This document shows positions 7,550 through 28,600 of a stretch of DNA of 64,000 bases, one piece after another. Origin of the DNA: Arcobacter nitrofigilis DSM 7299 (GTDB lineage: Bacteria; Campylobacterota; Campylobacteria; Campylobacterales; Arcobacteraceae); contig NC_014166.1 in NCBI RefSeq assembly GCF_000092245.1, positions 2,170,001 to 2,234,000 on the forward strand. The letters are read 5' to 3'. Made by a program: the position numbers and the translations under genes. Under the pieces are notes generated by a model. That model searched no databases. It had not been told where the DNA came from and saw nothing but the letters and a program-made list of their open reading frames with translations. Position 1 is the first letter of the stretch, and each line of letters starts with the position of its first letter.

Positions 7550-7699
7550 ATCAAAAGAAATAACAAAGAATAGTAAAAAAAACCAAAAATAATCTATTCT
7601 CAATAAAAGAAAAAATCTCAAAAAGTTACCAATTTATTTTAATTTTTTGGATTTAATAATTTTATTTCTAACAATAATATAATTTTGGGAGTAATAAAG

Positions 7700-9793
7700 A
7701 TGAAAAACTTAGGACAAGTATTAGAATATTATGCTTTAAAATATCCAGAAAAAGTAGCTATACGTTTTTTAGCAAGAGGAGAAGATGAAACAGACTCTAT
7801 AACTTATTTACAATTAAAACAACAATCTCATGCAATAGCAACTCAATTGTTAACCCAGTATAAAAGAGGAGATACCGCCCTACTTATTTTTGATGCAAGT
7901 ATTGATGTAGTTGTCACATTTTGGGGATGTGTTTATGCTGGAATTATTGCAGTCCCAATTCCTATTCCAAATGGAAATAAAGGAATGGATAATGTAGCAC
8001 ATATAGTAGAAGATGCAGAAATTAGTTTAATTATTAGTCATACTTCGGTTGAAAGTCGTTTAAGTAAGAAATTTAAAGAAAATATCCAATTGAAAAGACT
8101 AGATTGGCTGATTGTTAATAAGAAAAATTTTAAAGAAAATATATTTTTAGATAAGGATGTTTTTTCATCTAATCAATTATTATTATTACAATACACTTCA
8201 GGTTCTACAAATAAACCTAAAGGAGTAAAAGTATCTCATCAAAATATGATAGCACACCAAGAAGGATTAAAAGAAGCATTTTATAGTGATGAAAATTCTG
8301 TTGTGGTTAGTTGGTTACCATATTACCATGATATGGGATTAATTGGGAAAATAATACATGCAACTTTTTGTGGTGCAACCCTTATTTTAATGCCACCAAT
8401 TGCATTTGTACAAAATCCATTTCGTTGGTTACAAGCAATTAGTAAATATCAGGGAACTAATAGTGCTGCTCCAAATTTTGCCTATGAGGATTGTTTACGA
8501 AATATAACAAATGAACAATTAAGCCAATTAAATCTAAGTTCTTGGAAAGTTGCATGGAATGCTGCTGAACCAATACATGCAAATACAGTTGTAAATTTTT
8601 GCAATAGGTTTTCACAATGTGGATTTAATCCTCAATCATTGACAACAGCTTATGGAATGGCTGAATCTACCTTAGCAATTTCAGTTGCGGATATAAAATC
8701 AAAACTAAAACTATTAGCAATAGATGAAAATGAATTTAAACAAGGAAATATCAAAGTTATTAAAGAACTCTTTATTGATAGCAACCTAGAAGAAATCTCC
8801 CAATATAAAAAAGTAGTAGTAGATTGTGGAAATTGTATTTCAAACCATCAAATAAAAATAGTAGATCCAAAAAACAGATTGTTATGCTCCGATTATAAAA
8901 TTGGAGAAGTATGGTTTAGTGGCAAAAGTGTAGCAAATGGATATTGGAAAAAAGAAACATTAAGCCAAAGTACTTTTTTCGCAACTATTCAAAATAATAA
9001 TAATTCTGAAACTTATTTACGTACAGAAGATATGGGTTTTATGGACAAAAACAAAAATCTTTTTATAGTGGGACGGCATAAAGATATGATAATCATTCAT
9101 GGAGAAAATTATGCACCTCAAGATTTAGAGTTTAGTATTTTTAACTCTCATGAAGCTTTTGTAGAAAGTGGTTGTTCTGCATTTTCAGTAATGTCTCAGG
9201 GGAAAGAGAAAGTAGTTATAGTCCAAGAAATTAAACGTACACAAAGAAAAAAAGTTGATTTTGAAAAATTATTATCACATGTTAAAAATATACTTTCACA
9301 AGAGTATCAATTACAGTTATTTGCTTTAGTTTTCATCCATCAAGCAAACCTTCCTAAAACCACAAGTGGAAAAGTCCAACGTAAATTATGTAAGCACTTA
9401 TTTATTAATGAAGAGTTTTCTCCTTTATATTCTTGGGTTCCACAACAATTAGATGAACAGCAACTATTAAATGAAAAAGTATCTGAACAAAATCTTCACA
9501 TTGAATCTTCATCAAATCAATTGTCTTATGAGAAACTAATACATTGGTTAGAAGAATGGATTCAAAAAACTATCCCTGCAATAGAAAGTTTTGAGAAATC
9601 TAGTAACTTTTCTAGTTATGGTATGGATTCAAAAACTACTGCACTAATGGCTTATGATTTAGAAAGTTATATTGGATATGAGCTTGATCCAACATTATGT
9701 TGGAACTACCCAAATCCTGATACTTTAATAAATCATCTTATAGATGAAATAAAAACTAATCAACTTATCCCTTTAAAAGGTAATCTAAAATGA
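7700..9793 (+). CDS. Fatty-acyl-AMP ligase fused to acyl carrier protein (starter-loading module)
   Basis: The adenylation domain (about 1-590) has the P-loop-like motif YTSGSTNKPKGVKVSH and the GMAESTLAIS segment typical of fatty-acyl-AMP ligases (FAAL), which activate free fatty acids as acyl adenylates for carrier proteins rather than CoA. The C-terminal carrier domain carries YGMDS with the phosphopantetheine serine at about 644. It should therefore load a fatty acid onto its own carrier and pass it to the ketosynthase of the next protein. I chose ATG 7700, 697 aa, because GGGAG lies about eight bases upstream; an in-frame TTG at 7685 would add five residues. The stop overlaps the next start codon (ATGA at 9790), indicating translational coupling. 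Chain length of the substrate is unknown. Confidence 0.9.
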   Translation: MKNLGQVLEYYALKYPEKVAIRFLARGEDETDSITYLQLKQQSHAIATQLLTQYKRGDTALLIFDASIDVVVTFWGCVYAGIIAVPIPIPNGNKGMDNVAHIVEDAEISLIISHTSVESRLSKKFKENIQLKRLDWLIVNKKNFKENIFLDKDVFSSNQLLLLQYTSGSTNKPKGVKVSHQNMIAHQEGLKEAFYSDENSVVVSWLPYYHDMGLIGKIIHATFCGATLILMPPIAFVQNPFRWLQAISKYQGTNSAAPNFAYEDCLRNITNEQLSQLNLSSWKVAWNAAEPIHANTVVNFCNRFSQCGFNPQSLTTAYGMAESTLAISVADIKSKLKLLAIDENEFKQGNIKVIKELFIDSNLEEISQYKKVVVDCGNCISNHQIKIVDPKNRLLCSDYKIGEVWFSGKSVANGYWKKETLSQSTFFATIQNNNNSETYLRTEDMGFMDKNKNLFIVGRHKDMIIIHGENYAPQDLEFSIFNSHEAFVESGCSAFSVMSQGKEKVVIVQEIKRTQRKKVDFEKLLSHVKNILSQEYQLQLFALVFIHQANLPKTTSGKVQRKLCKHLFINEEFSPLYSWVPQQLDEQQLLNEKVSEQNLHIESSSNQLSYEKLIHWLEEWIQKTIPAIESFEKSSNFSSYGMDSKTTALMAYDLESYIGYELDPTLCWNYPNPDTLINHLIDEIKTNQLIPLKGNLK

Positions 9794-12700
9794 ATAAAAC
9801 ATATGAACCTATTGCTATTATAGGAACCTCTTGTCGTTTACCAGGAGAAATTAATGATTTAAATGATCTTTGGCATAAATTAAGTGCTTCTTATGATGCA
9901 GTTGTTGATATTCCAAGTGAACGTTGTTTACAAGATAATATTTATAATAACACACCACAAGTTGGTAAAAGTTATGCAAAAAAAGCTGGATTACTTAATA
10001 ATATAGCTAACTTTGATGCAAAATTTTTTGGTATTTCAGATGAAGAAGCTACTGCAATGGATCCACAACAGAGACTATTACTTGAAGCAGCTTGGCATGC
10101 ATTAGAAGATTCAGGTCAATTTAAAAATGACGATTTATTAAAGGAAACAGGATTCTATGTAGGTATTGCTACAGACGATTATAGCCAAATAGGAATACAT
10201 AAGCACAAATTAGATGAAGTTAGTACATATACTACATTAGGATCATTAAGATCAATTAGTGCAGGTCGAGTAGCATATCATCTTAATCTAAATGGTCCTG
10301 TTAGTCAAATAGACACTGCTTGTTCTTCTTCACTCATGGCAATTCATCAAGCGTGCCAAAGTTTACGTTTAAATGAGGCAGATTGTATGTTGGCTGGTGG
10401 AATCAACTTATTAATATCCCCTCAAACTATGGTTGAACTAAGTCAAATAAAAGCATTATCCTTAAGTAACCGTTGTAGTGTTTTTGATAATAGTGCAGAT
10501 GGCTATGTAAGAGGAGAAGGTTATGGATTAGTTGTATTAAAAAGATTAAGTGATGCAGAAGCAAACAACGACAATATTATTGCTGTAATCAAAGGCTCTT
10601 TAACTAACCATGATGGATCAAGTAATGGATTAACTGCACCAAATGGTTTAGCACAAGAAAAACTTCTTAAAAAAACTCTTAAAATTTCAAATATTAATTC
10701 ACATGAAGTTAGCTATGTTGAAACTCATGGGACAGGAACACTATTTGGTGACCCCATAGAAGTAAACAGTATTATTAATGTATATGGGAAAAATAGAAAT
10801 AAAGATAATCCACTATTTTTAGGTTCAATTAAAAGTAGTATTGGACATTTAGAAGCAGCAGCTGGTGTTGCAGGAATACTGAAAGTTTGCTCTTCAATAA
10901 CAAATAAGCAATTAATTCCAAATTTAAATTTTTCAACACCTAATCCTTATATTAATTGGGACAAGGCTCCTATTAAAGTTATTGATACTTTAAAACCTTG
11001 GTCTAACAAGGATAAAGAACTAAGAACTGCTACTATGAGTTCATTTGGCTTTAGTGGAACAAATGTACATATGATTATTCAAGAGTATCAAAATAATAAA
11101 GAAGATTTAACAGCAAATAAATTAACAAATGAACTTTATATAATACCAATATCAGCAAAAAGCTTAACTTCATTAAAAAATTTAGTAAAGGCATGGTTAG
11201 AGGCAGATTATTTAACAAAGGAATCTATTGCTAATATAGCATATAGTGCTACTGTTACTAGAAAACATTTTGAATATAAACTACTAGTTCTAGTAAAAAA
11301 CTATGAAGATTTAAAACTTAAGTTAAAATCTTGGTTCCATAATAAAGAAACAGATTTATTATGGAGCAGTATTAATTTTAAACCACTTACTGATAAGTGC
11401 AATATTAATAAAAACTACATTGATATTATAAATAACTACTTTACAAATAATCATATTGATTGTGAAGATTTATATGGTAAGAATAAAATTTCCCATTGTA
11501 AGCTACCTAGTTATACCTTTGATAGTAAAATCTACTGGTGGGAAAAACCATATGATTTTACCATAAGAACTTCTGATAAATTAATAGAAAATAAAAATAT
11601 ATCATATAAATTACAATGGGAAGAATATAGCATAAATGAAAGCATATCAACTAATCATAATATACAAATAATTGCAGATAGTACAAATAACAATATAATT
11701 AAACTATTAGAAAAAAGTTCTGAAGAATCAAATTATATAAGTCAAAGTACAAATGAATTTTTAAATACACCTGTTAATAAAGATACAAATTATATTTATT
11801 TTATTCATATAAGTGAAGACATAGATATACTTGAAAATAACATAGCTAAGATATGGTCTATAGTACAATATTTTAATAAAAATAATAACTCATCTAAAAT
11901 ATGGATTATTACAGAGCAATCACAACATTTTGAAAAAGATGATATTACCAATATAAATGCCTCTTCAATTTGGGGATTATTTCGCTCATTAAGAATAGAA
12001 CTAGGAACTAGTTGGGGTGGAATAATTGATATGCCTCAAAATATAACAAAAGATATTATAAATAAGATGTTTATGTGCTTTTATCAGCAAAACGATGAAG
12101 ATCAATATGTACTTCGGGATAAAAAAGTATATATACCTAGATTATTACCACATACATTAGATACACAAAATGTTTTCTCTTTTGATTTAAAAGCCTCATA
12201 TCTTATTACGGGTGGGTTAGGCGCTTTAGGAATAGAATTAATAACTTACTTAATTTCTTTAGGAATTAATCATATTATTCTAGCTTCAAGAAGAGGAGAA
12301 GATACCTTAAAAAATAAGAAAGATTTTGCTAATAAAATTAAAGAATGGAGAAGACAAGGAAAACAAATTGATATTTATAAATTAGACCTTAGTAATGAAC
12401 TTCAAGTATCAGATTTTTTTGAAAATCTGAAAAAAGAAAGTATTAATTTAAAAGGGATAGCCCACCTTTCTGGTGTTATTAGCAAACAAGATTTAAGTAA
12501 AAGTCCAAAAGAAAAAGATATTCATAATTTTATGGCTGCAAAAACTAAAGGGGCTTGGTATTTACATAAATATTCACAAGTATTTCATTTAGATTTCTTT
12601 TTATTATTCTCTTCAGTTACAGCCCTATTTGGGATGAAAGATTTAGCTTTTTATAGTGCAAGTAATGCTTTTTTAGACGCTTTAGCTTTACATCGAAGTA

Positions 12701-15700
12701 AACAAGGATTAAAAGCACTATCAATAAACTGGGGAAGATTTGATATAGATGGTATGGTTGATAATCAAGATGCTAAAGTATTAGATACATTAGGTGTTGC
12801 TAAAATGAAAACAACAAATACTTTTACAAAAATGACTCATTATATGCAATATACCAATAATATTTGTATAACAGATGTAAATTGGGACAAATTTACATCT
12901 TATTTTAAACAATTATCTAGCATTAATTTATTTACTCATTTATTACCTAAGTCAAATCATCTAATAAGTACTCAAAAAATTGAAACAAAAGAACACTTTA
13001 AGAAATATTTTATTGATATTATTAGGAAAGCACTAAAACTAGAAAAAAATAAAATATCAACAACACAAAACTTATTCTCAATAGGTCTTAACTCTATGCT
13101 TTCAATGTATATTAGACAAGCACTTGAAGAGAATTTGAAACTAACAACAGAAGCCACATTATTTTTTAAAAAACAAACTATAGAGCTATTGGTTGAATAT
13201 TTATGGGAACAATACCAAAACAATAACAATAATAAAATGATTAATACTCAATTAAATAATGAAGATGGGAAAATTATATTTTTATTTAGTGGTCAAGGTA
13301 CCCAATATCCAGGAATGGGAAAAACACTTTATACTAATAATGAAAAGTTTAAACAATCAATTGATTATTGTATAAATTTTTTACAAAAAGAATTTGACTT
13401 AGATTTTAAATATATTTTATTTGATGATAAATCTAAGTTATTAAAAGAAACAAAATATGCTCAATTATCCTTATTTATTATTGAATATTCATTATATAAA
13501 TTATGGCAAGAAAAAAATATTCATGCTGATTATTTTATAGGGCATAGTGTAGGAGAATATGTTGCAGCTTGCCTTGCTGGAGTATTTAGCCTTGAAGATG
13601 CATTAAGATTGCTAAAAGTTCGGGGAAAACTTATGCAAAGCTTAGAAAACCATGGTGATATGATGGTAGTTTTTGATTCATTTGAAAACATACCTACTCT
13701 TCCGAATTCTTTAGATATAGCTGCTATAAATAGCCCTTGGCAAACTGTTATATCTGGGAATATAAATCATCTTAAAAATTATGAAAAAAAATTATCAGAA
13801 AAGAATATAAAAACACAATTATTAAATACACAAAAAGCCTTCCACTCAAGTTTAATGATGCCTATACTAAAAGAGTTCCAAAAATTTGCAAGTACAATTA
13901 CTTATAAAAGTCCCAATATACCAATTATTACTAATATTAATGCTACTGTGGCTAAAGAAGATATTGCTTGTGCAAAATATTGGGTAGATCATATTATAAA
14001 TACTGTCCAATTTGCGCCAAGTATTCAAAAAGCTTATGAAAAAGGTTGTAGATACTTCATTGAAGTTGGGCCTGGTAGTGTTCTTAAAAATTTAGCAGAA
14101 GAAAACATAATACAAAAAAATATCAACTGTCATTATTTTAATTCATTGATTAATGAAGATAAGCCTAAAGAATATTTACTAAAACAACAAGAAAAATTAA
14201 AATTATCTCAAAAAAGTTTAATTAATCATAAAGATGATTCCATAAAAGAAAATTTATTAAGACCAATTATACATAATGAACAAGATAAATTTAAACCTTT
14301 TGCTTTAACTTCTATGCAACATGCTTATTGGTTAGGAAGAAATGAGGAAATTGCAGAAGGTGGTGTTGCTATCCACATGTATTTAGAACTTGATATAAAA
14401 TATTTTAATAAAGAAAATTTTACAAATGCATGGAAAACACTTGTTGAAAGACATGATATGTTACATGCTATAGTTGATAGAAATGGAGAGCAACAAATAT
14501 TAAAACAAATTCCTGAATTTTCTATTCTAGAGCACTCTTTAAAAAATAAAGATGAAAATGAAAAAGAAATATATTTAGAAGATATACGACATGAGTTATC
14601 TCATCAAAATGTATCTCTTGAAAAATGGCCTCAATCTGAAATAAGAATAACTAAACTTGATGATAATAATTCAAGGGTACATATTAGTATTGATGGATGG
14701 ACTATTGATGGGTGGAGTTATCAAGTTTTATTCCACGAATTACATGAACTATACCATAATCCAAAATTAACACTACCTACAATCAATATTAGCTTTAGAG
14801 ATTATGTTTTGCAATTAAAAGAGATAGAAAATAGTGCCTTTTATCAAAAACACTTGACAAAATGGAGAGAACGATTAAAAGTATTACCCAAAGCTCCCCA
14901 ATTACCTATGAATAAGAATAAAACTAATACTAATCGTTTTAAACGTTGGGAGTATTTTATAAATAAAGAACAATATGCATCATTAAAAAAATATGCTAGT
15001 GATAAGTCCTTAACAACAGTAACCACCCTACTTTCAGCTTATGCTTGGGTTCTTAGTCGCTATAGTAAAGAACAAGATATTACACTTAATATACCACGAT
15101 TTAATCGTTTACCATTACACTCTGATATTAATCGTGTTATAGGAGAATTTGCTAGTTTTACTTTACTTGCTTGTACAAGAAAAGAAGATACAACATTTAA
15201 TGAATATGCTAATAAAATACAAAAACAACTATGGGAAGATGTGGAAAACCCTTGGGTTCCCGGAGTTACTTTATTAAGGGAATTAGCAAAAATTTCTAAT
15301 CAATCAAATACAATGATGCCTTTTGTTTTTACAAATATGCCAGAAGAGAGTCTTGATGGGAAAAAATTAGAATTTTTAAATGAATGGAGCAAAAGTGCAG
15401 ATATTCCATACTTCTTAACTCAAACACCTCAAGTACAAGTTGATTGTCAATACCATGATAAAGATGATGGACTATTTGTATTTTGGGATGTTTTAATAGA
15501 TAAATTCGAACCTGAAATAATTGATAATTTATTCTCTAGTTATATTGATTTAATACAAAACTTATCATCTTCTGACAAAGCGTGGAATCAAAACTCTTTA
15601 CCTATGAAAAAAAGTTCATCTCTTATTGCAAATGAAGAACAAATACCAAAACAAGGCCTATATGAACAATTTACAAATACTGCACAAAAAAATAAAAAAA

Positions 15701-17499
15701 ATATTGCTATTTATAGTGAAAATAAAACATTAACTTATGAAGACCTATATATTAAATCTCAAAAATTAGGAACTTATATTAAAAATAATATAAACTTCAA
15801 AAATGAAACTCCTACAATAGCAATTATTATGAACAAAGGATGGCAACAAATTGTAGCTGTCATGTGTACACTTGCAAGTGGAGCTATATTTTTACCTTTA
15901 GATAGCAATCTTCCAAAAGATAGAATGCAATATGCTTTACAAAATGCAAATACAAAAATGGTAATAAGTAAAGAAAATCAAATATCTCAAATCAAAGAAA
16001 AACTTGAAAATATAGATATACCTTTAATCTCTATTGACGATGAAAGCCTCTACAAAACAAGTGAAGCAATTTTACCTATAAAATATGAAGATTTAGTTTG
16101 CATTATTTATACATCTGGTTCAACAGGTTTACCAAAAGGTGTTATGGTCACTCAAAAAGCACTTATCAACAATATAAATTATACTAATAATAGGTTTAAG
16201 GTAGATACAAATGATGCTATTTTATCACTCACTCCTATATACCATGACTTAGTATTATTTGATATATTTGGGGCACTTACAGCAGGTGCTAGTATTGTAA
16301 TACCAGAAGAGGAAAAAAGAAAAGATCCAGAACATTGGCTTGCTCTCATTAAACAATATAGAGTAAGCATATGGAATAGCGTACCAACTATGATGGAAAT
16401 GTTAATTAAATTTAGTAGTACAAACCAAATCCAAAATAAACAACTATTATCATCTCTTAGATTATGTATTCTGGGAGGTGATTGGATTCCACTTACTATT
16501 CCACCTGGATTAAAAGAGTTAAATACAAAAACTACACTTGTAAGTATTGGAGGGCCTACTGAAACTACTGTATGGAATATTATGTATGAAATTAAAGAGT
16601 TTGACACTAATTGGAAGAGTATTCCTTATGGAAAACCTATTACAAATACAACATATTATATTTTAAATGATTTATTAGAAGAATGTCCAATTGGCGTAAC
16701 TGGTGAGTTATATGTAAGTGGTATTAGTTTAGCAGCTGGGTATATTAATGATTTAGAAAAAACTCAAGAAGTTTTTATTAATCATCCTAAAACAAAAGAA
16801 CGTATGTACAAAACAGGAGATTTAGGAAAATTACTTTCTAATGGTCTGATTGAATTTATGGGAAGAAGTGATAATCAAGTTCAAATATCAGGTTATCGTA
16901 TTGAACTTAGCGAAATAGAATCATTAGCACATAAACAAATAGAAATTAATAGAGCACAAGCCTTATTAATAAAAGATAATAATACTCCCCATATTGCTTT
17001 AGTTTATAGTTGTAATGATGGTGATATTTCAGAAAATAAATTAAAAGAACAACTTAAAGCCTCTCTTCCACAAGAAATAATTCCTAAAAAACTACTTAAA
17101 ATAAAACAATTTCCATTAACTGTTAATGGGAAAATAGACAGAAATGCTCTAATTCAATTATTAAATACTAAAAATGAACAACATGTCCATACTAAAAGAA
17201 TAGTTGAAAATGAAATTCAAAAACACTTAATGAGTCTATGGCAAAAGCATTTACAAAGAGAAAATATTGGCTTATATGAAAATTTTTTTGAAGCAGGAGG
17301 TAACTCATTATTAGCAACAGAGTTATTTATCCAAATACGTCAAGAATTTCCAATAATTAACTCAGTTGTGCTTCTTTATGAACATACAAGTATATACGAA
17401 TTATCTCAATTTATTGAAAAACAAACAACAGTAAAAAATGTAGCAAAAAAGAATACAAGAGGGCTACAACGTCGTAAAAGATTATTAGCAAAAAATTGA
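9790..17499 (+). CDS. Hybrid PKS-NRPS: KS-(no AT)-KR-ACP-AT-Cy-A-PCP
   Basis: This 2569-aa megasynthase extends the FAAL-loaded starter and then adds a cyclized amino acid. KS (about 5-430) has DTACSSS with Cys178, HGTGT and GHLEAAAG. The normal KS-AT linker runs straight into a post-AT linker (LPSYTFDSKIYWWEKP, near 575), with no AT between. KR (about 800-985) has Ser941/942, Tyr955 and Asn959, so it looks active. ACP serine is about 1102, in GLNS. A complete AT (about 1162-1450) follows the ACP, with GHSVG (Ser1253) and AFH (1350-1352), suggesting malonyl-CoA. Cy (about 1500-1930) has DxxxxDxxS at D1635, D1640 and S1643. The A domain (about 1960-2460) has YTSGSTG; its ten-residue code reads by eye as DLFNIGIVWK, not a standard code I know. 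PCP serine is about 2506. The displaced AT is unusual. Confidence 0.9.
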   Translation: MNKTYEPIAIIGTSCRLPGEINDLNDLWHKLSASYDAVVDIPSERCLQDNIYNNTPQVGKSYAKKAGLLNNIANFDAKFFGISDEEATAMDPQQRLLLEAAWHALEDSGQFKNDDLLKETGFYVGIATDDYSQIGIHKHKLDEVSTYTTLGSLRSISAGRVAYHLNLNGPVSQIDTACSSSLMAIHQACQSLRLNEADCMLAGGINLLISPQTMVELSQIKALSLSNRCSVFDNSADGYVRGEGYGLVVLKRLSDAEANNDNIIAVIKGSLTNHDGSSNGLTAPNGLAQEKLLKKTLKISNINSHEVSYVETHGTGTLFGDPIEVNSIINVYGKNRNKDNPLFLGSIKSSIGHLEAAAGVAGILKVCSSITNKQLIPNLNFSTPNPYINWDKAPIKVIDTLKPWSNKDKELRTATMSSFGFSGTNVHMIIQEYQNNKEDLTANKLTNELYIIPISAKSLTSLKNLVKAWLEADYLTKESIANIAYSATVTRKHFEYKLLVLVKNYEDLKLKLKSWFHNKETDLLWSSINFKPLTDKCNINKNYIDIINNYFTNNHIDCEDLYGKNKISHCKLPSYTFDSKIYWWEKPYDFTIRTSDKLIENKNISYKLQWEEYSINESISTNHNIQIIADSTNNNIIKLLEKSSEESNYISQSTNEFLNTPVNKDTNYIYFIHISEDIDILENNIAKIWSIVQYFNKNNNSSKIWIITEQSQHFEKDDITNINASSIWGLFRSLRIELGTSWGGIIDMPQNITKDIINKMFMCFYQQNDEDQYVLRDKKVYIPRLLPHTLDTQNVFSFDLKASYLITGGLGALGIELITYLISLGINHIILASRRGEDTLKNKKDFANKIKEWRRQGKQIDIYKLDLSNELQVSDFFENLKKESINLKGIAHLSGVISKQDLSKSPKEKDIHNFMAAKTKGAWYLHKYSQVFHLDFFLLFSSVTALFGMKDLAFYSASNAFLDALALHRSKQGLKALSINWGRFDIDGMVDNQDAKVLDTLGVAKMKTTNTFTKMTHYMQYTNNICITDVNWDKFTSYFKQLSSINLFTHLLPKSNHLISTQKIETKEHFKKYFIDIIRKALKLEKNKISTTQNLFSIGLNSMLSMYIRQALEENLKLTTEATLFFKKQTIELLVEYLWEQYQNNNNNKMINTQLNNEDGKIIFLFSGQGTQYPGMGKTLYTNNEKFKQSIDYCINFLQKEFDLDFKYILFDDKSKLLKETKYAQLSLFIIEYSLYKLWQEKNIHADYFIGHSVGEYVAACLAGVFSLEDALRLLKVRGKLMQSLENHGDMMVVFDSFENIPTLPNSLDIAAINSPWQTVISGNINHLKNYEKKLSEKNIKTQLLNTQKAFHSSLMMPILKEFQKFASTITYKSPNIPIITNINATVAKEDIACAKYWVDHIINTVQFAPSIQKAYEKGCRYFIEVGPGSVLKNLAEENIIQKNINCHYFNSLINEDKPKEYLLKQQEKLKLSQKSLINHKDDSIKENLLRPIIHNEQDKFKPFALTSMQHAYWLGRNEEIAEGGVAIHMYLELDIKYFNKENFTNAWKTLVERHDMLHAIVDRNGEQQILKQIPEFSILEHSLKNKDENEKEIYLEDIRHELSHQNVSLEKWPQSEIRITKLDDNNSRVHISIDGWTIDGWSYQVLFHELHELYHNPKLTLPTINISFRDYVLQLKEIENSAFYQKHLTKWRERLKVLPKAPQLPMNKNKTNTNRFKRWEYFINKEQYASLKKYASDKSLTTVTTLLSAYAWVLSRYSKEQDITLNIPRFNRLPLHSDINRVIGEFASFTLLACTRKEDTTFNEYANKIQKQLWEDVENPWVPGVTLLRELAKISNQSNTMMPFVFTNMPEESLDGKKLEFLNEWSKSADIPYFLTQTPQVQVDCQYHDKDDGLFVFWDVLIDKFEPEIIDNLFSSYIDLIQNLSSSDKAWNQNSLPMKKSSSLIANEEQIPKQGLYEQFTNTAQKNKKNIAIYSENKTLTYEDLYIKSQKLGTYIKNNINFKNETPTIAIIMNKGWQQIVAVMCTLASGAIFLPLDSNLPKDRMQYALQNANTKMVISKENQISQIKEKLENIDIPLISIDDESLYKTSEAILPIKYEDLVCIIYTSGSTGLPKGVMVTQKALINNINYTNNRFKVDTNDAILSLTPIYHDLVLFDIFGALTAGASIVIPEEEKRKDPEHWLALIKQYRVSIWNSVPTMMEMLIKFSSTNQIQNKQLLSSLRLCILGGDWIPLTIPPGLKELNTKTTLVSIGGPTETTVWNIMYEIKEFDTNWKSIPYGKPITNTTYYILNDLLEECPIGVTGELYVSGISLAAGYINDLEKTQEVFINHPKTKERMYKTGDLGKLLSNGLIEFMGRSDNQVQISGYRIELSEIESLAHKQIEINRAQALLIKDNNTPHIALVYSCNDGDISENKLKEQLKASLPQEIIPKKLLKIKQFPLTVNGKIDRNALIQLLNTKNEQHVHTKRIVENEIQKHLMSLWQKHLQRENIGLYENFFEAGGNSLLATELFIQIRQEFPIINSVVLLYEHTSIYELSQFIEKQTTVKNVAKKNTRGLQRRKRLLAKN

Positions 17500-17517: not shown

Positions 17518-20500
17518 ATGGAAAATACAGATACGTCTATGGATGTGGCAATAATTGGTATGGCTGGAAAGTTTCCAGGAGCAGATAGTATACAAAAACT
17601 TTGGGATAATATATGTCAAAGTGTAGATGTTCGCCAAGAATTTAGTGATGAAGATTTAAAGCCTTTTGCAAAAGATATGAGCCAAATAAATAAAAGTGAC
17701 TTTGTAAGAAAAGGATATATGATAAAAGATGTAGCTAAATTTGATGCTAAATTTTTTAATCTAACACCTAAACAAGCTAAAATAATGGACCCTCAACAAC
17801 GATTATTTTTAGAAACTGCATGGCAAGGGCTAGAAAATGCAGGATATGCCTCAACAGATGAATCACAACACATTGGAGTATATGCAGGAGCAAACTTTAA
17901 TAATTATATTTTTAATGTTGGGGAACACCTTGAAATGAGAGATATTGTTTCTTATTTTGATGCTATGATAGCAAATGATAAAGATTATCTTACATCAAGA
18001 GTTGCATATCATTTAAACTTAACAGGTCCTGCAATAAGTATACAAACCTCGTGTTCTAGTTCATTAGCAGCAATCTCAATAGCTTACCAAGCCCTATTAG
18101 ATTATCAATGTGATATGGCAATTGCAGGAGGGGTTGGATTAAATATTCCTCAAGAAAGAGGTTATAGATATTATAAAGAAGGTGGCTTATCAAAAGATGC
18201 TGCGTGCCATTCTTTTGATAAAGATGCTTCTGGAGTAATGCATGGTAATGGCCTTGGTGTAGTTATATTAAAAAGGTTAGAAGATGCTTTAGAAGATGAA
18301 GATAATATTATCTCCGTAATTAAAGGTGCGACTATAAATAATGATGGTAGTAAAAAAGTAGCTTATTTTACACCAAGTGTTGAAGGTCAAATGGATGCCA
18401 TTAGTGAGACCCTTTCCGTTACAAACATTGACCCTCAAAATATACACTACATGGAAGCACATGGACCAGGAACACCAGTAGGAGATCCAATAGAGTTTAA
18501 AGCATTAAGTCAGGCATATGATGTTGATAGCTCAAAACATTATGAAAAAACATGCGCCTTAGGTTCTATTAAAAGTCACCTTGGACACCTAGGTGCTGCA
18601 TCAGGAGTTGCAGGACTTATTAATGCATCTTTAATTCTTAAAAATAGAAAAATCCCAGCTACTATGCATTTTAAAGATATAAATCCAGAAATAAATATTG
18701 AAAATAGTCCATTTTATATTAATACTCAACTAAAAGATATGGATTCAACATATCCGGAAAGCCTTAATGCAGCTATCAGTTCATTTGGTATAGGAGGAAC
18801 AAATGCACATATTATCATACAGTCAGCACCAAAAATAGATTATAAAAATAAATCTTGGGAAGATAGTTTTTATTTCTTTCCCCTTAGTGCAAAAAATGAA
18901 AAATCATTACAATATCAAACAAAACAATTAAATGAGTATATTTTAGAAAATAGAGATCTTTCATTAGCTGATATTTCATATACTTTACAACAAAGAAGGC
19001 AACACTTTAACCATAGACGATTTATTGTTGCTAAAAACTATGAAGATTTACAAAATCAATTAATATTAGAACCTATACCAAAAAATCAGACACTTATTAC
19101 AAATGACAAGAATAAAATACGTTCTATAGTGTTTATGTTTCCAGGAGTTGGTGATCAGTATATTAATATGGGTAGAGACTTATATTATCAACAAAAAGTA
19201 TTTAAAGATACAATTGATGAGTGTGCACATCTAGCACAGGAATATTTAAATGGCATTGATATTCGAGAAGTTTTATATCCAAAAAATGAAGACATAACTC
19301 AGTCAAATAAACTTATCCATAAAGCAGAAATAACATTAACTATTTTATTATCTGTTGAATATGCTTTGACTAAACAATTAGAGTACTATGGAATTGTGCC
19401 AAATCAAATGATTGGCCATAGTTTAGGTGAATATTGTGCAGCATTAGTTTCAGGTGTATTTACTTTAAAACAAGCATTATCCTTAGTTGCATTTCGAGGA
19501 AAACTTATACAAAGTTGTGAACCAGGATCTATGCTTGTAGTAAATAAAGATACAGATAAATTAAAAGAAATTTTACCTCAATCACTATCCTTAGCTGTAA
19601 TTAATGCAGAACAATTAAATATGATTTCAGGGACAATTATAGAAATTGAAAAATTTGAAATAGAATTAAAAAATACTAATATTAGTTATACAAAACTGCC
19701 AGGAGGTAGAGCTGGTCACTCAAGTACTCTTGATCCTATTCTTGGAGAGTTTGAATCTTTCATCGAGAATATGGATTTACAAACACCTTCTATTGATTTT
19801 ATTTCAAATGTGACAGGTGATTGGATAAAAGATGAAGAAGCAATTTCTGCTAAATATTGGACAAAACATTTACGTCAAACAGTTGAGTTTCATAAAGGCT
19901 TATCTGTATTAATAGAACAAGAAAATACAGCATTTATTGAAATAGGAGCAGGAAGAGGTTTAACAACTATAGCAAAAAGACATCCAAAAGCAAAACGTTC
20001 TTTATCTGCATATGCGAGTATGAAAAGTTCTAATAAAAAAACAGATGATAACAATGTATTGTATGAATTATTAGGTTCACTATGGCTTGAACAATATAAA
20101 ATAGAATGGGAGGCTTTAACTCCAAAACAACATTGTCACCTTTTAGAATTACCGACTTATGCTTTTGATAGACAATCATATTGGTTAGAACGAACATTTA
20201 ATGAAATTCAACCGGATAGTACAAATCCTAAAAAAAGAGAAGATTTCAATACTTGGTTTTATTCTCCTTCTTGGATTAAACTTTCAGAAAATAACCAAAA
20301 TAATTTAGATGAAAAAAAGAAAAACTATATTGTATTTAACACTCATGATAAAGTTCTTAATAAAACTATTAATTATTTAGAAGAAAATGATAATAATGTT
20401 ATTTGTATCAACTATGGAGAGTTATACAAAAAAATAGATAATCAGAACTATATTATAAATGCAAATGAAATGAATGATTATAATAAATTATTTAATGATT

Positions 20501-22191
20501 TAATGGAATATTTTGATAACTCGTTTTGTATAATTCATGGATGGATGATTAGTGAAATGGATTCTATATTAGAAAATAATATAGATAAATTTTACACTTC
20601 AAATTCACAAGTCTTAGGTTACTACAGCATTACTTCATTAATGCGTGTTCTAACACAATATAACCTAATCTCAAAAACTAGACTAGTTATATTATCAAGT
20701 CAACTTTATAATATAATAGGTGAAGAAATATTATCACCTGATAAATCAACACTGATTGGTCCTTGTAAAGTTATTCCTTATGAATTTCCAGAATTAGACT
20801 TTATACATATGGATATTGATACAAAATCTCTTTTGGATGATAAAGCCTTCGATTCCTTTATTAGAGATATTACAAGCAATAAACCCCATGATAAATATTT
20901 ATCCCTTGCTTATAGAAATGGTATTCGATGGAAACCATATTACCATCCACTTAGTTCTGAACTTATTAAAAATAAAAGCGAAGAAAACCTTAATATTAAA
21001 AATAATGGTATTTACTTAATTACGGGTGCATTTGGAGGAATAGGTACAGTAGCTTCAAATTGGTTAATGGAAGAGACTTCAAATATCACTTTAATTTTAC
21101 TAAGTAGAACAAACTTACCAAAAAAAGAACAATGGGAAGAATACTTAGCAAAAGAAAAAGATATTGATATTTGTAAGAGAATCAAACATATACAATCATT
21201 AGAAAATAAAGGGGCAACTGTTCTCACTTATTCAATTGATGTTAGTGATGAAAATAAAATGCATGAATTGCAGAAAAAAATATATAAAGAAGTGGGACAA
21301 GTCAATGGAATCATCCATGCAGCAGGAGTTGTTGGAGGAGGATTAATAGAATTAGAAGAGAGTATTAATTTTCATGAAAACTTAAATACAAAAGTAATTG
21401 GAACAAAACTATTATATAAATTATTTGCAAATAATGACTTAGATTTTATTTTATTATGTTCATCACTTGGTTCACTTGTAGGTGCCTTAGGTCAAATGGA
21501 AAACACTTCTGCCAACTCATTTTTAGATGCTTTTTCTCAAGCACTTTCAAAAAACCCTAGCTCAACAAAAGTTATGGCAATCAATTGGGATTATTGGTTA
21601 GAAGTGGGAATGATTTTAGAGTTAGCTGATCGTCACAAACAAATAGCAGGAGATGAAATAAGTATTGGTATTTTGCCTAAAGAAGGTAAAAAGTGTTTCT
21701 CAATACTATTAAACCTTTTAAATATGCCAAATGTAGTCATTTCAACAGCAGATATCCACCAACTATTAAAACTACGTTCTGAAGTAACACATAAAACATT
21801 AAAAATGTTTCAAGATGCAAATATAACAAAGGAAAATAATGATGAAAGAAACAATCTATCAACTCAATATTTAGCACCAAGAAATTCAATTGAAAAAGTA
21901 TTAGTTTCATTATGGGAAAATCGATTAGGAATAAAAATTGGAGTAAATGATAACTTTTTTGAGCTAGGGGGTGATTCAATGGTTGCACTTCCACTTATGG
22001 CTGATATGAGAGATACTTTACATTTTGATTTACCAATTCAATCATTATTTAATGAACAAGATGTAGCTTCAATTGCTACGTTTATCTTTGAAAATGAAAC
22101 TTCTCCCGGTACAACAGAACAAATTGCAGAAGTATATTTACAAATACAAAACTTATCAAATACAGAAGTTAAACAAGCTTTAGAAAACTAA
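17518..22191 (+). CDS. Type I PKS module: KS-AT(RAGH)-KR(Tyr lost)-ACP
   Basis: The 1557-aa protein is one polyketide extension module. KS (about 5-440) has TSCSSS with Cys179, a variant HGPGT and GHLGAASG. AT (about 535-840) has GHSLG with Ser635, and the specificity motif that is HAFH in malonyl and YASH in methylmalonyl enzymes is R731-A-G-H734; xAGH variants are known in ethylmalonyl-type ATs. A structural half-KR precedes a catalytic KR (about 1150-1360) with the TGAFGGIG nucleotide motif and SS. Where Tyr is expected in YxxxN it has Asn1329 (N1329-T-S-A-N1333), so reduction is doubtful. The carrier motif GGDS has Ser1487. It starts 18 bp after the previous gene. By colinearity it acts between the first and second azoline-forming modules. 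The KR defect would leave a ketone. Confidence 0.9.
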   Translation: MENTDTSMDVAIIGMAGKFPGADSIQKLWDNICQSVDVRQEFSDEDLKPFAKDMSQINKSDFVRKGYMIKDVAKFDAKFFNLTPKQAKIMDPQQRLFLETAWQGLENAGYASTDESQHIGVYAGANFNNYIFNVGEHLEMRDIVSYFDAMIANDKDYLTSRVAYHLNLTGPAISIQTSCSSSLAAISIAYQALLDYQCDMAIAGGVGLNIPQERGYRYYKEGGLSKDAACHSFDKDASGVMHGNGLGVVILKRLEDALEDEDNIISVIKGATINNDGSKKVAYFTPSVEGQMDAISETLSVTNIDPQNIHYMEAHGPGTPVGDPIEFKALSQAYDVDSSKHYEKTCALGSIKSHLGHLGAASGVAGLINASLILKNRKIPATMHFKDINPEINIENSPFYINTQLKDMDSTYPESLNAAISSFGIGGTNAHIIIQSAPKIDYKNKSWEDSFYFFPLSAKNEKSLQYQTKQLNEYILENRDLSLADISYTLQQRRQHFNHRRFIVAKNYEDLQNQLILEPIPKNQTLITNDKNKIRSIVFMFPGVGDQYINMGRDLYYQQKVFKDTIDECAHLAQEYLNGIDIREVLYPKNEDITQSNKLIHKAEITLTILLSVEYALTKQLEYYGIVPNQMIGHSLGEYCAALVSGVFTLKQALSLVAFRGKLIQSCEPGSMLVVNKDTDKLKEILPQSLSLAVINAEQLNMISGTIIEIEKFEIELKNTNISYTKLPGGRAGHSSTLDPILGEFESFIENMDLQTPSIDFISNVTGDWIKDEEAISAKYWTKHLRQTVEFHKGLSVLIEQENTAFIEIGAGRGLTTIAKRHPKAKRSLSAYASMKSSNKKTDDNNVLYELLGSLWLEQYKIEWEALTPKQHCHLLELPTYAFDRQSYWLERTFNEIQPDSTNPKKREDFNTWFYSPSWIKLSENNQNNLDEKKKNYIVFNTHDKVLNKTINYLEENDNNVICINYGELYKKIDNQNYIINANEMNDYNKLFNDLMEYFDNSFCIIHGWMISEMDSILENNIDKFYTSNSQVLGYYSITSLMRVLTQYNLISKTRLVILSSQLYNIIGEEILSPDKSTLIGPCKVIPYEFPELDFIHMDIDTKSLLDDKAFDSFIRDITSNKPHDKYLSLAYRNGIRWKPYYHPLSSELIKNKSEENLNIKNNGIYLITGAFGGIGTVASNWLMEETSNITLILLSRTNLPKKEQWEEYLAKEKDIDICKRIKHIQSLENKGATVLTYSIDVSDENKMHELQKKIYKEVGQVNGIIHAAGVVGGGLIELEESINFHENLNTKVIGTKLLYKLFANNDLDFILLCSSLGSLVGALGQMENTSANSFLDAFSQALSKNPSSTKVMAINWDYWLEVGMILELADRHKQIAGDEISIGILPKEGKKCFSILLNLLNMPNVVISTADIHQLLKLRSEVTHKTLKMFQDANITKENNDERNNLSTQYLAPRNSIEKVLVSLWENRLGIKIGVNDNFFELGGDSMVALPLMADMRDTLHFDLPIQSLFNEQDVASIATFIFENETSPGTTEQIAEVYLQIQNLSNTEVKQALEN

Positions 22192-22204: not shown

Positions 22205-25200
22205 ATGACAGAATTATCAAAAGAACAACGTGAACTAATGGCAAAACTATTAAAAGAGAAAGGACTATCTGATAATCCAACACCTAAAGAAAATAGTATT
22301 ACTATTAATCCAGATGAAATAAATCGCTATGAGCCCTACCCTTTAACTGATATTCAACAAAGCTATTTATTAGGTCGTAGTCAAAAATTTCTATTAGGTA
22401 ATGTAGCAAGTCATGCTTATATTGAAATGGATATTGAAAATTTGGATATAAGCCAATATGAATATGCATGGCAAAAAATAATAGAAAGACATGATATGCT
22501 GCGTACAATTGTCAATCAAAATGGATTACAACAAACCCTTAAGGATGTTCCAAAGTTTAAAGTAACTACACATGACTTAACAAACTTACCAGATGAAAAG
22601 AGAAAAGTAAAGGCATTATTAGAGATAAGAGATTCTTTATCTCATCAAATTCTACCAACAGATCAATGGCCATTATTTAATATCCATGTGAGTAATATTG
22701 ATAATACTCAATATAAAATACATTGGAGTTTTGATGCTATTATTTCAGATGTTTATAGTAATTTTATTTTTCAAGAAGAATTATATAACTATTATCACCA
22801 ATCAAATAGCTCCTATGCTCCACTAAAACTTACCTTTAGAGATTATGTCCTTACATTAAAAAATCAAGAAGAAACTTCATTTTATGAAAATGCAAAAAAC
22901 TATTGGTTGAAAAAAATCAAAACATTGCCTTCTGCTCCAATGCTACCATTAAAAAGAGATTTGTCAGAAATAGAAAAACCACATTTTAAGCGCTTAAAAT
23001 TTACTATGGAGAATACTCAATGGAAAATAATTAAACAAAAATCAAAAACCTATGGTCTAACTACCACAAGCGTTTTATTAACAGTATTCTCTCATATACT
23101 TCATCGTTGGAGTAGAAATCCTGATTTTACTTTAAATATGACAGTTTTTAATCGCCCACCTTGGCATAAAGAGATGGATAAAATTGTAGGAGACTTTACA
23201 ATTACCATGCTCTTAGGAATTGATGCTTTAAGTGGAGATAATAAAATCTTTAAAGATCTTGCAAAAAACATTCAATCAAAATTATTTACTGATTTAGAAC
23301 ACCGTTTATATAGTGGAGTAAATGTTATGCAACAATGGTCTAAGATTAGTGGTAATAAACAAATTGCTCCTATTGTTTTTACCAGCGCTTTAACAGTAGG
23401 AGATATTAGTTCTAAGCTAGATGCAGATAAAAATCAACTGGGTCAAATGACTTATTCTATTACCCAAACACCACAAGTTTTATTAGATCATCAAGTATAT
23501 GAAGAAGATGGAAAACTTATTATACATTGGGATTATGTAGAAGAGGCATTTGAAGAAAATTTACTTTCTATAATGTTTGACTCTTATATAAACGCTTTAA
23601 ATCTTTTAGGAAAAGATAATACAAGTTGGGAAGAAGAACTATCTATTCATATGCCATCACTACAAAAAGAGTTACGTATTTCATATAATAATACAAAAGA
23701 TGAAGAGTTATTAAACCTTTCAAATAAACCCATTTATTATTCTTTTATTGAACAAGTTAAAAAACAAGCAACTGCAACTGCAATAGTATCTACTAATAAA
23801 ACTTTAACATATGAAGAGTTAGCGTATAGAGCCTATGCTTTAAATATACAATTACAAAAAAGAGGTCTAGGTGGGGGAGATAATATTGCAATTATTTTAC
23901 CTAAAGGGTGGCAACAAGTTGTAGCAGTATTAGGAGTACTTGCTAGTGGAGCAAGCTATATTCCAATAGATAATAACTCTCCCAAACAAAGACTTAATAA
24001 GATACTAAAAGATACTAATTGTAAATATGTTATTAGTATAGAACAATGCTACAAATCTTTATCATTAACTGACGAGATAATATGTTTATTTATAGAAGAT
24101 GAGTTAGCTAAAAAAGATCCCCAAGCAGTAGATTTTTGGCCAATTAAACATACTAATGATGATATTGCATATATTATATATACTTCAGGTTCAACAGGGA
24201 TGCCAAAAGGTGTGATGATGAGCCATAATTCAGTGATGAATACAGTATTAGACATCAATAAACGATTTAATATTAATAAAGAAGATAGTATTTTTGGTTT
24301 ATCTGCACTTAACTTTGATTTATCAGTATACGATATATTTGGTACACTTGCAGCAGGAGCGACTTTAGTTTTACCTGATGCAAAACAAGAAAAAAATCCA
24401 CAGCATTGGCAAGAATGTTTAAAGAATCATCCTTGTACAGTATGGAATAGTGTTCCTGCTTTACTTCAAATATTTTTAGAATATACACCAAATAAAACTA
24501 TTTTAGAATCCTTTAAAACCGTAATGGTTAGTGGAGATAAAATTCCTTTAAATCTAGTTAACATAGTCTATGAAAAGATGCCTAATACACATCTTTTTAG
24601 TTTAGGTGGTGCAACAGAAGCTGCAATTTGGTCTATATATTATCCAATCAAAAAACTCACTAATAATTTTAAAAATATTCCCTATGGAATACCTCTTAGT
24701 AATCAAAGCATACATATCTTAGATGAGAATTATCGACCTTGCCCTGATTATGCAGTAGGGAAATTATATATTGGAGGTATTGGTTTATCAAAAGGTTACT
24801 TTAATGATAAGATAAAAACACACAAGCACTTTATACAAAATCCTCATACAAAAGAATTTTTATATGACACAGGAGATTTAGGCTCATTTAATCCGTCAAA
24901 TGGTGGTTATGTTGAATTTAAAGGAAGAGAAGATAATCAAATTAAACTTAGTGGATTTAGAATTGAATTAGGTGAAATAGAAAATAATTTAAATGAACAT
25001 CCAGATATTAACAAAGCTATTGTTGTATTAGTTGAAGATAAAAGCTTAAAAAAATCTAAACAAGTTTTAGTTGCTTATATAGCAACAAATAAAATAATAG
25101 ATGAAAATAAAATTAAACAATATCTTAATGATCATTTACCAGAGTATATGATTCCTAGATTTTATATTACTTTAGATGAAATACCATTAAGTATTAATGG

Positions 25201-25603
25201 AAAAATTGATTATAAACATTTACCAAAAATAGATATTCTAGAAAAATACCATGCAAATTATGTAGCACCTAAAAATAAATTAGAAACAACTATCCAAAAT
25301 ATTATTTCAGAACACTTATCTATTGAAAAAGTTAGTGTTGAAGAGAGTTTATTTGATTTAGGTGCTACTTCTTTAGATGTGGTAACTATACATAATCAAT
25401 TAGAAACAAAATTAAATATAAACTTATCAATTTTAGATTTATTTGATAAACCAACAATAAGAACACTTTGTCTTCATATTGAACAAAAAGATAATCAAGT
25501 CAATAATATTTTAACTCAAGCAAGACAAAAAGCTAAAACTACTAGCCGAAGACAAAGATTAATACAAAGACAAAATAAAATAGGAGAAGAGAATGAACTA
25601 TAA
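22205..25603 (+). CDS. NRPS module Cy-A(Cys)-PCP
   Basis: The 1132-aa protein condenses and cyclizes a cysteine. The Cy domain (about 40-470) has DxxxxDxxS at D177, D182 and S185 in place of the HHxxxDG of ordinary condensation domains; Cy domains form thiazoline or oxazoline rings. The A domain (about 490-1000) has YTSGSTG (659-665), and its code reads by eye as DLYNMSLIWK, one change from the well-known cysteine code DLYNLSLIWK. The carrier domain has GATS with Ser1056 instead of the common GGDS. It starts 13 bp after the PKS gene, with AGGAAAAG before the ATG, and its end overlaps the next start by 11 bp. No methyltransferase, oxidase or epimerase domain is present, so a simple thiazoline is expected. 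Confidence 0.92.
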   Translation: MTELSKEQRELMAKLLKEKGLSDNPTPKENSITINPDEINRYEPYPLTDIQQSYLLGRSQKFLLGNVASHAYIEMDIENLDISQYEYAWQKIIERHDMLRTIVNQNGLQQTLKDVPKFKVTTHDLTNLPDEKRKVKALLEIRDSLSHQILPTDQWPLFNIHVSNIDNTQYKIHWSFDAIISDVYSNFIFQEELYNYYHQSNSSYAPLKLTFRDYVLTLKNQEETSFYENAKNYWLKKIKTLPSAPMLPLKRDLSEIEKPHFKRLKFTMENTQWKIIKQKSKTYGLTTTSVLLTVFSHILHRWSRNPDFTLNMTVFNRPPWHKEMDKIVGDFTITMLLGIDALSGDNKIFKDLAKNIQSKLFTDLEHRLYSGVNVMQQWSKISGNKQIAPIVFTSALTVGDISSKLDADKNQLGQMTYSITQTPQVLLDHQVYEEDGKLIIHWDYVEEAFEENLLSIMFDSYINALNLLGKDNTSWEEELSIHMPSLQKELRISYNNTKDEELLNLSNKPIYYSFIEQVKKQATATAIVSTNKTLTYEELAYRAYALNIQLQKRGLGGGDNIAIILPKGWQQVVAVLGVLASGASYIPIDNNSPKQRLNKILKDTNCKYVISIEQCYKSLSLTDEIICLFIEDELAKKDPQAVDFWPIKHTNDDIAYIIYTSGSTGMPKGVMMSHNSVMNTVLDINKRFNINKEDSIFGLSALNFDLSVYDIFGTLAAGATLVLPDAKQEKNPQHWQECLKNHPCTVWNSVPALLQIFLEYTPNKTILESFKTVMVSGDKIPLNLVNIVYEKMPNTHLFSLGGATEAAIWSIYYPIKKLTNNFKNIPYGIPLSNQSIHILDENYRPCPDYAVGKLYIGGIGLSKGYFNDKIKTHKHFIQNPHTKEFLYDTGDLGSFNPSNGGYVEFKGREDNQIKLSGFRIELGEIENNLNEHPDINKAIVVLVEDKSLKKSKQVLVAYIATNKIIDENKIKQYLNDHLPEYMIPRFYITLDEIPLSINGKIDYKHLPKIDILEKYHANYVAPKNKLETTIQNIISEHLSIEKVSVEESLFDLGATSLDVVTIHNQLETKLNINLSILDLFDKPTIRTLCLHIEQKDNQVNNILTQARQKAKTTSRRQRLIQRQNKIGEENEL

Positions 25604-28600
25604 GAATATAAGTGATAATCCAGATGCAATTGCTGTTATTGGTATGTCTGGAATATTTCCCCAAGCAAAAGACATCAACAAATATTGGGATAATCTTATC
25701 AATGGTGTTGAGTCTATTATTCAATTTAGTAATGAAGAATCATCAACAAAAGGTCATTTTGTTCGTGCCGCTGCAACAGTAGATGATATAGATTGCTTTG
25801 ATGCAAAATTTTTTAATTATAGTGCCTATGAAGCAGAGATATTAGATCCCCAACAAAGACTATTTTTAGAGTGTTGTTGGCATGCATTAGAAGAAGCTGG
25901 ATATTCTCCAGATAAAGCTGGAAATGTAGGAGTATTTGCAGGAAGCAATATTAGCACCTATTTACTATTAGCGCAACAGTCCATCTTAGCTAAAGGAGAT
26001 ACTACACATTTACTACAACTACTTATGGGAAATGATAAAGACTATCTCGCCACAAGAGTATCTTATAAATTAAACTTGACAGGACCAAGTATCTGCGTTC
26101 AAAGTGCTTGTTCAACATCTTTATTATCAATCCATACAGCTGTACAAAGCTTATTAAATGGAGAGTGTAAAATGGCACTAGCAGGTGGAGTAAATATATC
26201 TATTCCCCAAGAGCTTGAGTATGAATATAAAGAAGGCATGATATTTTCTCCTGATGGACATTGTAGAGCTTTTGATGCTGATGCAAAGGGTACAGTTGCA
26301 GGAAATGGTGTAGGTGCAGTAGTACTTAAACCTCTTAGCGATGCAATTGAAGATGGGGATTCTATTCATGCTGTTATCTTAGGTTCAGCTGTAAATAATG
26401 ATGGGGCAAGAAAAATAGGATATACAGCCCCTAGTATAGAAGGACAATCTAGTGTAATAGCACAAGCTATAGCATTAGCAGATATTCCAGTTAATACTAT
26501 AGACTATATTGAAACTCATGGTACAGGAACCCCATTAGGTGACCCCATTGAAATTAGATCACTTAGTCAAGTATTCCAAAATGAAACCAAAGAGAAAGGC
26601 TTTTGTGCAATAGGTTCTGTTAAACCAAATATCGGTCATTTAAATTGTGCAGCAGGTATTGCAAGTTTTATAAAGACCGTATTATCACTAAAAAATGCAC
26701 AAATTCCACCTAGTTTACATTACAAAAAAGCCAATCCTGAAATTGATTTTATTAATACTCCATTTTTTGTCAATGATAAAGCGTCATTATGGCCTAAAAG
26801 AAATCACCCTCGTAGAGCAGGCGTAAGTTCTTTTGGTTTTGGAGGAACTAACGTACATATGATTTTAGAACAAGCACCAGAAAAAATAGAAACAAATATA
26901 AAAAAAGATGATGAAATAAACCTTGTTGTTTTATCAGCACAAAGTCAAAAACAATTACATACTCTTGCTGAAGATTATAATAATTACTTACAAAACACAG
27001 AGGAATCTTTGCAAAATATAAGTTTTACTAGTATAGAAGGAAGAAATCATCACAATGAGAGATTAGCCATTGTTGCAAAAAATCATAATCATTTGAAACA
27101 ACAAGTTCAAGAATTTTTAAATACAAAGGAAAATATACAAGGATATATAGGTACAAAAAATTATTCTACTAAAATTGCTTGTTTATTTACAGGACAAGGT
27201 TCAAGCTATCCAAATATGGCAAAAGAACTCTATACATCAAATAAACTCTTTCATAAAAATTTAAATTTATGTGCGAAGGAATTAGAAAACTTATTGGATA
27301 TACCATTAATAGATCTTATATTTGGTAAAGAAGAGCATACTAATTTACTTACACAAACTAAGTATGCTCAGCCAGCCATATTTGCAATAGAATACTCTTT
27401 ATATAATATGTATAGAGGAATGGGTATAGAATTTAGTGTATTAGCTGGACATAGTGTAGGTGAAATAGTCGCTGCTTGTGTAGCTGATGTTTTTAATTTA
27501 AAGGATGCTCTTAAATTAATTACTTCAAGGGGTCAACTAGTTCAAAACTTAGAAACAAATAAAGGTGGAATGTTAGCAATATTTACAAATCAAGAAATCA
27601 TAGATAAATATATAAACATCTACCCTCAATTATCAATAGCTGCACATAATGGACCTAATCATTTTGTCTTATCAGGTGAAAATATAATATTAGAAAAACT
27701 CATAGAACAGCTAGATAAAGACAATATTGAATATAGTAAACTAAAAGTATCTCACGCCTTCCATAGCTCTTTACTTGATCCAATATTGGATGATTTTGAG
27801 AAATTAGTAGCTTCATTTGATATGAAAATACCAAATACACAAATTGTATCTAACCTATATGGACGTATTGTTAAAAACGAAGAAATAACTACAGCAAAAT
27901 ATTGGCGTGAACACATGCGTAAGCCAGTTTTATTTATGGAAAGTATTAATACCTTAGAAAACATGGATATAAATTGTTTCTTAGAGTGTGGACCTCATCC
28001 TGTTCTAACTAATATGGGTAAAAAATGTGTAAGTAATACAGATTATCAATGGATTCATTCTTTACAACGAAATCAAGAAGATAAAAAAATTATTTTATCA
28101 GCTGTTGCCCAATTATATTGCAAGGGTATTGATATACAATGGGAAGGATTAGCTCATAATAAAGATTATCAAAGAGTATCCTTACCAACTTATCCATTTG
28201 ATAAGCAAAAATATTGGTTAAGTACTGTAGCTGATAGTTTACAAACACATAAGCAAGATGGCCCCTTAACTATTTGGAATAACATATTAAGTTCAGGAAA
28301 TAAACAAGCAAAAGAAGGAAGTAAAGCTTTAAATATTTCTCAACTAAAATATGATGAAAAAGTATTAATAACTCTAGCTCAAAGTTTTATTATAAAAGCA
28401 CTAAGATCTTTAGATTTATTCACTGATGATAAAAAGTATAGTTTAGATTCTATACTTCAAAAAGTAATTCCACAATATCATCAATTAATACAAAGGTTTT
28501 TAGAAGAGTTAAATGTTGTTGGATTATTAAAATCAAAAGATAAGCAATTTTGGCAATTAAAAGATATAAATAATCAAATAATAAAAGAACAAAAAAATGA

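Follow-up and report, generated by a model that had tools for sequence, protein, structure and literature searches.

A displaced acyltransferase domain behind the ACP of a cis-AT-type PKS-NRPS synthase in Arcobacter nitrofigilis

The first hybrid synthase of a PKS-NRPS cluster in Arcobacter nitrofigilis DSM 7299 carries a complete AT domain behind its ACP, and the place between KS and KR is empty. We propose, with a probability of roughly 0.7, that this AT left the KS-AT cradle of an ordinary cis-AT module for the ACP-Cy linker, from where it continues to load ACP1 with malonyl. Synthase 1 (9790..17499, + strand, 2569 aa) lies in a window of 64 000 nucleotides, the whole stretch of DNA analyzed, to which all coordinates refer; its domain order is KS-KR-ACP-AT-Cy-A-PCP. 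A Pfam scan placed the KS at residues 6-381, a KS C-terminal extension at 384-496, a CurL-like linker at 450-512, the KR at 802-983, the ACP at 1073-1138, a single AT at 1163-1445 (176 bits), a condensation domain at 1505-1861 and the A domain at 1961-2318, with a second carrier after it. Custom-built profiles returned the same order (AT 1161-1473, second carrier 2473-2548), and together the two scans bear out the arrangement KS-(no AT)-KR-ACP-AT-Cy-A-PCP read in a preliminary description of this DNA. The frame of 2569 codons is open at 28% G+C in two genomes. The second, an independent genome of a congener, carries the same open frame at ~99% identity (99.7% for the synthase 1 gene), so the displaced AT is not an assembly error. 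This close identity leaves too few differences to read selection on AT1. Only 6 of 1516 synonymous sites differ between the two genomes in synthase 1, against 47 of 2910 in synthases 2 and 4 (Fisher p 0.0002), and this lower divergence suggests, from sequence comparison, a recent recombination of part of the cluster.

The empty slot is well delimited. KS1 (9790..11079, +) has Cys178, His313 and His353 intact (TACSSS, HGTGT, KSSIGH) and is followed by a retained KS-AT linker (residues 431-512; 11080..11325, +), recognized by the Pfam families KAsynt_C_assoc and CurL-like_PKS_C and by linker comparison. After a junction at the missing AT (residues 513-540; 11326..11409, +), which is without AT profile match and was compared with cis modules, a retained post-AT linker (11410..11535, +) is identified by PDB alignment, linker comparison and its motif LPSYTF (572-577); the sequence after the KS-AT linker reads NYIDIINNYFTNNHIDCEDLYGKNKISHCKLPSYTFDSKIYWW. 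About 60 residues separate the end of the KS-AT linker (near 512) from LPSYTF, too few for an AT of ~300 aa; in the cis modules of the same cluster, ~320 AT residues lie between the two linkers. Pfam gave no AT match in residues 512-802, between KS and KR, and residues 391-800 align without a break to AT-less ketosynthase regions in the PDB (7zma; PksL, 5e5n). Profiles, linker comparison and PDB alignment thus agree that the AT is missing as if cut out cleanly between the two linkers, as first described, and by these alignments the KS1-KR1 stretch contains no hidden AT. A structure model of KS1 with its linkers reached a pLDDT of 35 and was set aside. KR1 with its structural subdomain (11587..12768, +; Pfam, motifs TGGLGALG 807 and YSASN 955) and ACP1 (12988..13221, +; Pfam, custom profiles, phosphopantetheine serine 1102 in GLNS) follow. 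A search for flanking direct repeats that might scar such a move returned one pair only, 25 nt long and imperfect (80%), at 11405-11429 and 12998-13022, with one copy in the empty slot and the other at the start of ACP1 and neither at an AT boundary; it is likely a product of chance in A+T-rich DNA.

AT1 itself (13270..14208, +; Pfam, PDB match, motifs, model) keeps a full set of catalytic motifs: GQGTQ at 1168, GHSVG at 1251 with Ser1253 as nucleophile, RGKLMQ with the carboxylate-binding Arg1278, and a malonyl-type AFHS at 1350, within QKAFHS, with His1352; the conserved Gln is also present. Across AT families, an F in AFHS is a sign of malonyl, and the Arg one of a carboxyacyl-CoA as substrate. 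The best PDB sequence match is the CurL AT (204 bits). An AlphaFold model of the ACP-AT piece has a pLDDT of 67-92 for most of the AT and a local drop to about 55-60, and matches solved PKS ATs (Foldseek E 6e-24; VIA Z 29.1 for the ZmaA AT, 26.7 for CurL) over model positions 96-404, about residues 1158-1466 of synthase 1. Motifs, Pfam and predicted fold therefore concur on a complete AT with GHSVG and AFH motifs after the ACP. We infer that AT1 works as a malonyl-specific transferase for ACP1. PksD-type proteins share the fold (Z 25.9), which is what speaks for reading AT1 as an acyl hydrolase with a proof-reading role, comparable to bacillaene PksD; yet Arg1278 is retained in RGKLMQ at the malonyl-carboxylate position and AT1 groups with cis ATs, and acyl hydrolases are, to our knowledge, without the carboxylate-binding Arg, so that we regard this reading as barely credible.

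The new site of AT1 is otherwise an ACP-Cy linker, 17 residues long in synthase 4. Sixteen Asn-rich residues (13222..13269, +) tether AT1 to ACP1 and 26 residues (14209..14286, +), which linker comparison found to be without a post-AT linker motif, tether it to Cy1; no KS-AT linker or LPTYPF-type motif accompanies AT1 at its borders, and its codon usage and G+C are not distinct from the surroundings. Cy1 (14287..15594, +; Pfam, custom profiles) carries the heterocyclisation motif DxxxxDxxS as DGWTIDGWS (1635-1643) and is followed by the adenylation domain A1 (15652..17169, +; Pfam, motif reading), whose specificity residues read by eye as DLFNIGIVW, and by PCP1 (17206..17433, +; custom profiles, GGNS 2503). 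AT-flanking linkers matter for the efficiency of AT-ACP transfer in DEBS (PMC6164871), so AT1 without linkers could be weak or slower than a cradled AT.

Phylogenies place both halves of the module on the cis side. The KS tree assigns KS1 to the cis-AT clade (98/94), apart from trans-AT KSs, and this position holds under four-state SR4 recoding (99.5/100). The AT tree puts AT1 among the cis ATs and separates it from FabD and trans-ATs (100/99), a placement that is weak after recoding (80/52). The best identities of KS1 are to cyanobacterial cis-clade modules (47-49%) and those of AT1 to ATs of the same cyanobacterial group (42%); the same cyanobacterial PKSs dominate both clades, and both domains match CurL well in the PDB. 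A sister pairing of KS1 and AT1 with a module of the relative G080 (97/93, 98/94) was lost under SR4 recoding and is left out of the argument. With KS1 in the cis-AT clade and AT1 among cis malonyl ATs, the fusion of a discrete AT to a trans-AT module is ruled out. Synthase 1 thus combines characters of two classes: as in cis-AT PKSs, its AT (residues 1161-1473) shares a polypeptide with KS and ACP, the KS belongs to the cis-AT clade and the AT is cis-type rather than FabD-like, but no AT is held between the KS-AT and post-AT linkers; as in trans-AT PKSs, joined linkers without AT follow the KS, but the KS lies outside the trans-AT clades and the cluster has no discrete FabD-like AT as a separate gene.

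Since KS1 and AT1 are both cis-AT and both linkers were left behind at KS1, a move within the module is favored. Among the readings offered in the preliminary description, domain relocation therefore fits best: the AT-flanking linkers stay at KS1, AT1 carries no remnant of them, and both domains fall in cis-AT clades. A remnant of module fusion fares worse, because no piece of a neighboring KS linker, post-AT linker or second ACP surrounds AT1. The cis type of AT1 suits relocation, but AT1 is close to AT4 in the AT tree while KS4 sits in a different KS clade from KS1, so that another module may be the source of AT1. Under that reading, the ACP-Cy linker received the AT of some other module, module 1 lost its original AT in a separate event, and the newcomer still loads ACP1. 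AT domains recombine freely, which counts in its favor, but it requires two events, no donor-AT linkers are present at the new site, and the top matches of AT1 are the same cyanobacterial cis modules as those of KS1; we consider it unlikely, if by no means negligible.

Module 1 could also be served in trans by AT2, AT4 or FabD, with AT1 surviving as a silent remnant of a module that was lost or fused. The KS1 linkers are joined as in AT-less KSs that use trans ATs, and the genome does encode FabD. A plasmid of Planktothrix agardhii NIES-204 (L038, 6869-8779) furthermore carries a stand-alone AT-less KS of the same cis clade with its AT-flanking linkers joined, so that AT loss from such a KS has occurred elsewhere. 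That every catalytic residue and the full AT fold are kept in AT1, and that a second KS, linker or ACP remnant is absent around it, makes a silent leftover decidedly unlikely.

The surrounding cluster frames how the relocated AT would work. Upstream, FAAL-ACP0, a fatty acyl-AMP ligase with a carrier (7685..9793, +; Pfam AMP-binding 15-421, DIP2-like AMP domain, PP-binding), has a stop that overlaps the synthase 1 start and is the probable loader of a starter acyl chain. Downstream, profiles identify synthase 2 (17518..22191, +; KS-AT-KR-ACP), a Cy-A-PCP NRPS (22205..25603, +; motif DAIISDVYS) and, with motifs, synthase 4 (25593..35309, +; KS-AT-MT-KR-ACP-Cy-A-PCP-TE); in both PKS-containing synthases the AT is in its usual place. 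A type II thioesterase (35316..36059, +) is followed in the cluster by a zinc-type dehydrogenase, a phosphopantetheinyl transferase (37451..38155, -) and a TonB-dependent receptor (38285..40369, -). With three Cy domains, and two A domains that by eye are cysteine-type (DLYN...W), a fatty acyl-ketide that contains thiazoline-type rings is the probable product; the TonB receptor prompts the guess that this is a metallophore. AT2 (19123-20091) has GVGDQ and GRAGHS instead of the GQGxQ and xxAFHS of the other ATs, and KS2 has HGPGT in place of HGTGT; such motif changes possibly reflect an unusual substrate or reduced activity.

The ancestor would have been a cis-AT module of the usual build (KS-AT-KR-ACP, then Cy-A-PCP), whose AT moved from the slot between the KS-AT and post-AT linkers into the ACP-Cy linker. 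In the present enzyme, FAAL-ACP0 would hand the acyl chain to KS1, AT1, ~16 residues behind ACP1, would transfer malonyl from malonyl-CoA to Ser1102 of ACP1 on its own chain or on the partner chain of a dimer, and after condensation by KS1 and reduction by KR1, Cy1 would pass the chain to the amino acid loaded by A1. In AT structures, the N-terminal GQG motif forms part of the active-site lining; with this end at the active site and a short tether to ACP1, loading in cis or across the dimer is compatible with the layout. Besides the three ATs embedded in PKSs, the genome encodes a single FabD, at a distance of ~100 kb from the window. As the cluster has three PKS modules, each with a KS, three extender ACPs and three ATs, one AT per ACP is the simplest model, with AT1 loading ACP1. 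The position of AT1 at the PKS-NRPS boundary, freed from its KS, would suit an AT that loads ACP1 and also carriers of neighboring modules, the third reading first offered, but modules 2 and 3 have their own ATs with Ser and His motifs and no carrier is without one. Nothing then requires AT1 to serve a neighbor, and we regard such sharing as very improbable. More tentatively, and at somewhat less than even odds, the relocated AT1 may be a cis-type AT freed from the KS platform yet still tethered, a natural cis/trans-AT intermediate that drives its module from behind the ACP without flanking linkers.

The layout appears to be rare. In a census of 29 plasmid records with 174 ATs, a non-random sample rich in Streptomyces and cyanobacteria, 153 ATs start 223-634 nt downstream of the KS C-terminal domain; the corresponding distance for AT1 is ~2,350 nt. 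The 21 exceptions comprise three second copies in KS-AT-AT tandems, one N-terminal loading AT, one AT that a transposase gene separates from its KS, and for the rest mostly FabD-like or trans-AT-type ATs in short frames of their own. No displaced in-module AT was recognized among them by coordinates and frame lengths, with part of them domain-scanned. On a plasmid of Anabaena sp. WA102 (L021, 8031-13614), a KS gene is separated from the AT-ACP gene expected after it by an IS1634 transposase gene, which may have broken this PKS. The plasmid pNY3A of Klebsiella grimontii (L033) holds a large trans-AT PKS cluster with Bacillus-type neighbors such as loaP, and the record is possibly mislabelled or contaminated. 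Within Arcobacteraceae, the synthase 1 gene occurs in 2 of 104 genomes (the window genome and the congener, but none of the other 102), and in a 397-genome sample of the phylum the KS-linker-KR stretch was found in the window's own genome only. Inspected by eye, the 16S rRNA gene resembles that of Arcobacter. The relatives G007 and G080 have PKS genes with the AT in its usual place, and other relatives in the family and order showed ordinary PKS layouts only. The best plasmid matches to ACP-AT-Cy proved to be ordinary KS-AT-ACP-Cy or KS-AT-DH-ACP-C, and the same query against genome contigs gave one weak, unrelated match only. A literature search for the string KR-ACP-AT returned Caenorhabditis elegans PKS-1 only (PMC4604110), plus general remarks on trans-AT domain order. 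The census, genomes and literature searched thus did not yield many known PKSs with this order, the observation that would have spoken against its being unusual; KS-KR-ACP-AT-Cy is a rare layout variant, of which other instances may exist beyond the material searched.

In cis-AT synthases, the KS-AT didomain and its two linkers are commonly regarded as a fixed structural core, and a main obstacle in PKS engineering lies in cutting or moving the AT. If true, the relocation of AT1 would show that the AT position between KS and KR is not essential. It would also give engineers a working pair of boundaries (about residues 512/541 and 1145/1474) and provide a concrete model of how cis-AT modules might turn into AT-less ones.

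Several known systems share parts of this architecture. The cyanobacterial cis-AT modules (curacin CurL, Tolypothrix, Gloeocapsa, Nostoc) have KS1 and AT1 in their clades and similar linkers, but hold the AT between these linkers and not behind the ACP. Trans-AT modules (bacillaene PksL, 7zma) resemble KS1 in passing from KS through joined linkers to processing domains, with an AT-less slot, whereas KS1 lies outside their KS clade and AT1, which is not FabD-like, forms a tethered part of the same chain. Colinear PKS-NRPS clusters that start with KS-AT-ACP-Cy occur on Klebsiella pneumoniae pC696_1 (L016) and Vibrio coralliilyticus pOCN014 (L018). Yersiniabactin-type hybrids (irp1/HMWP1; these Klebsiella and Vibrio plasmid synthases) likewise have a PKS feeding Cy-A-PCP, with a TonB receptor and thioesterases nearby, but the AT is in its usual place in those read, and the starter here would come from a FAAL. 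In Streptomyces plasmid KS-AT-AT tandems, one AT is likewise not directly behind the KS, but this second AT follows another AT and AT1 follows an ACP. The nemamide synthase PKS-1 of C. elegans, compared by its published string alone, contains KR-ACP-AT (PMC4604110); it is a giant animal enzyme with many AT-less modules, in which the AT is followed by DH/KS and not by Cy.
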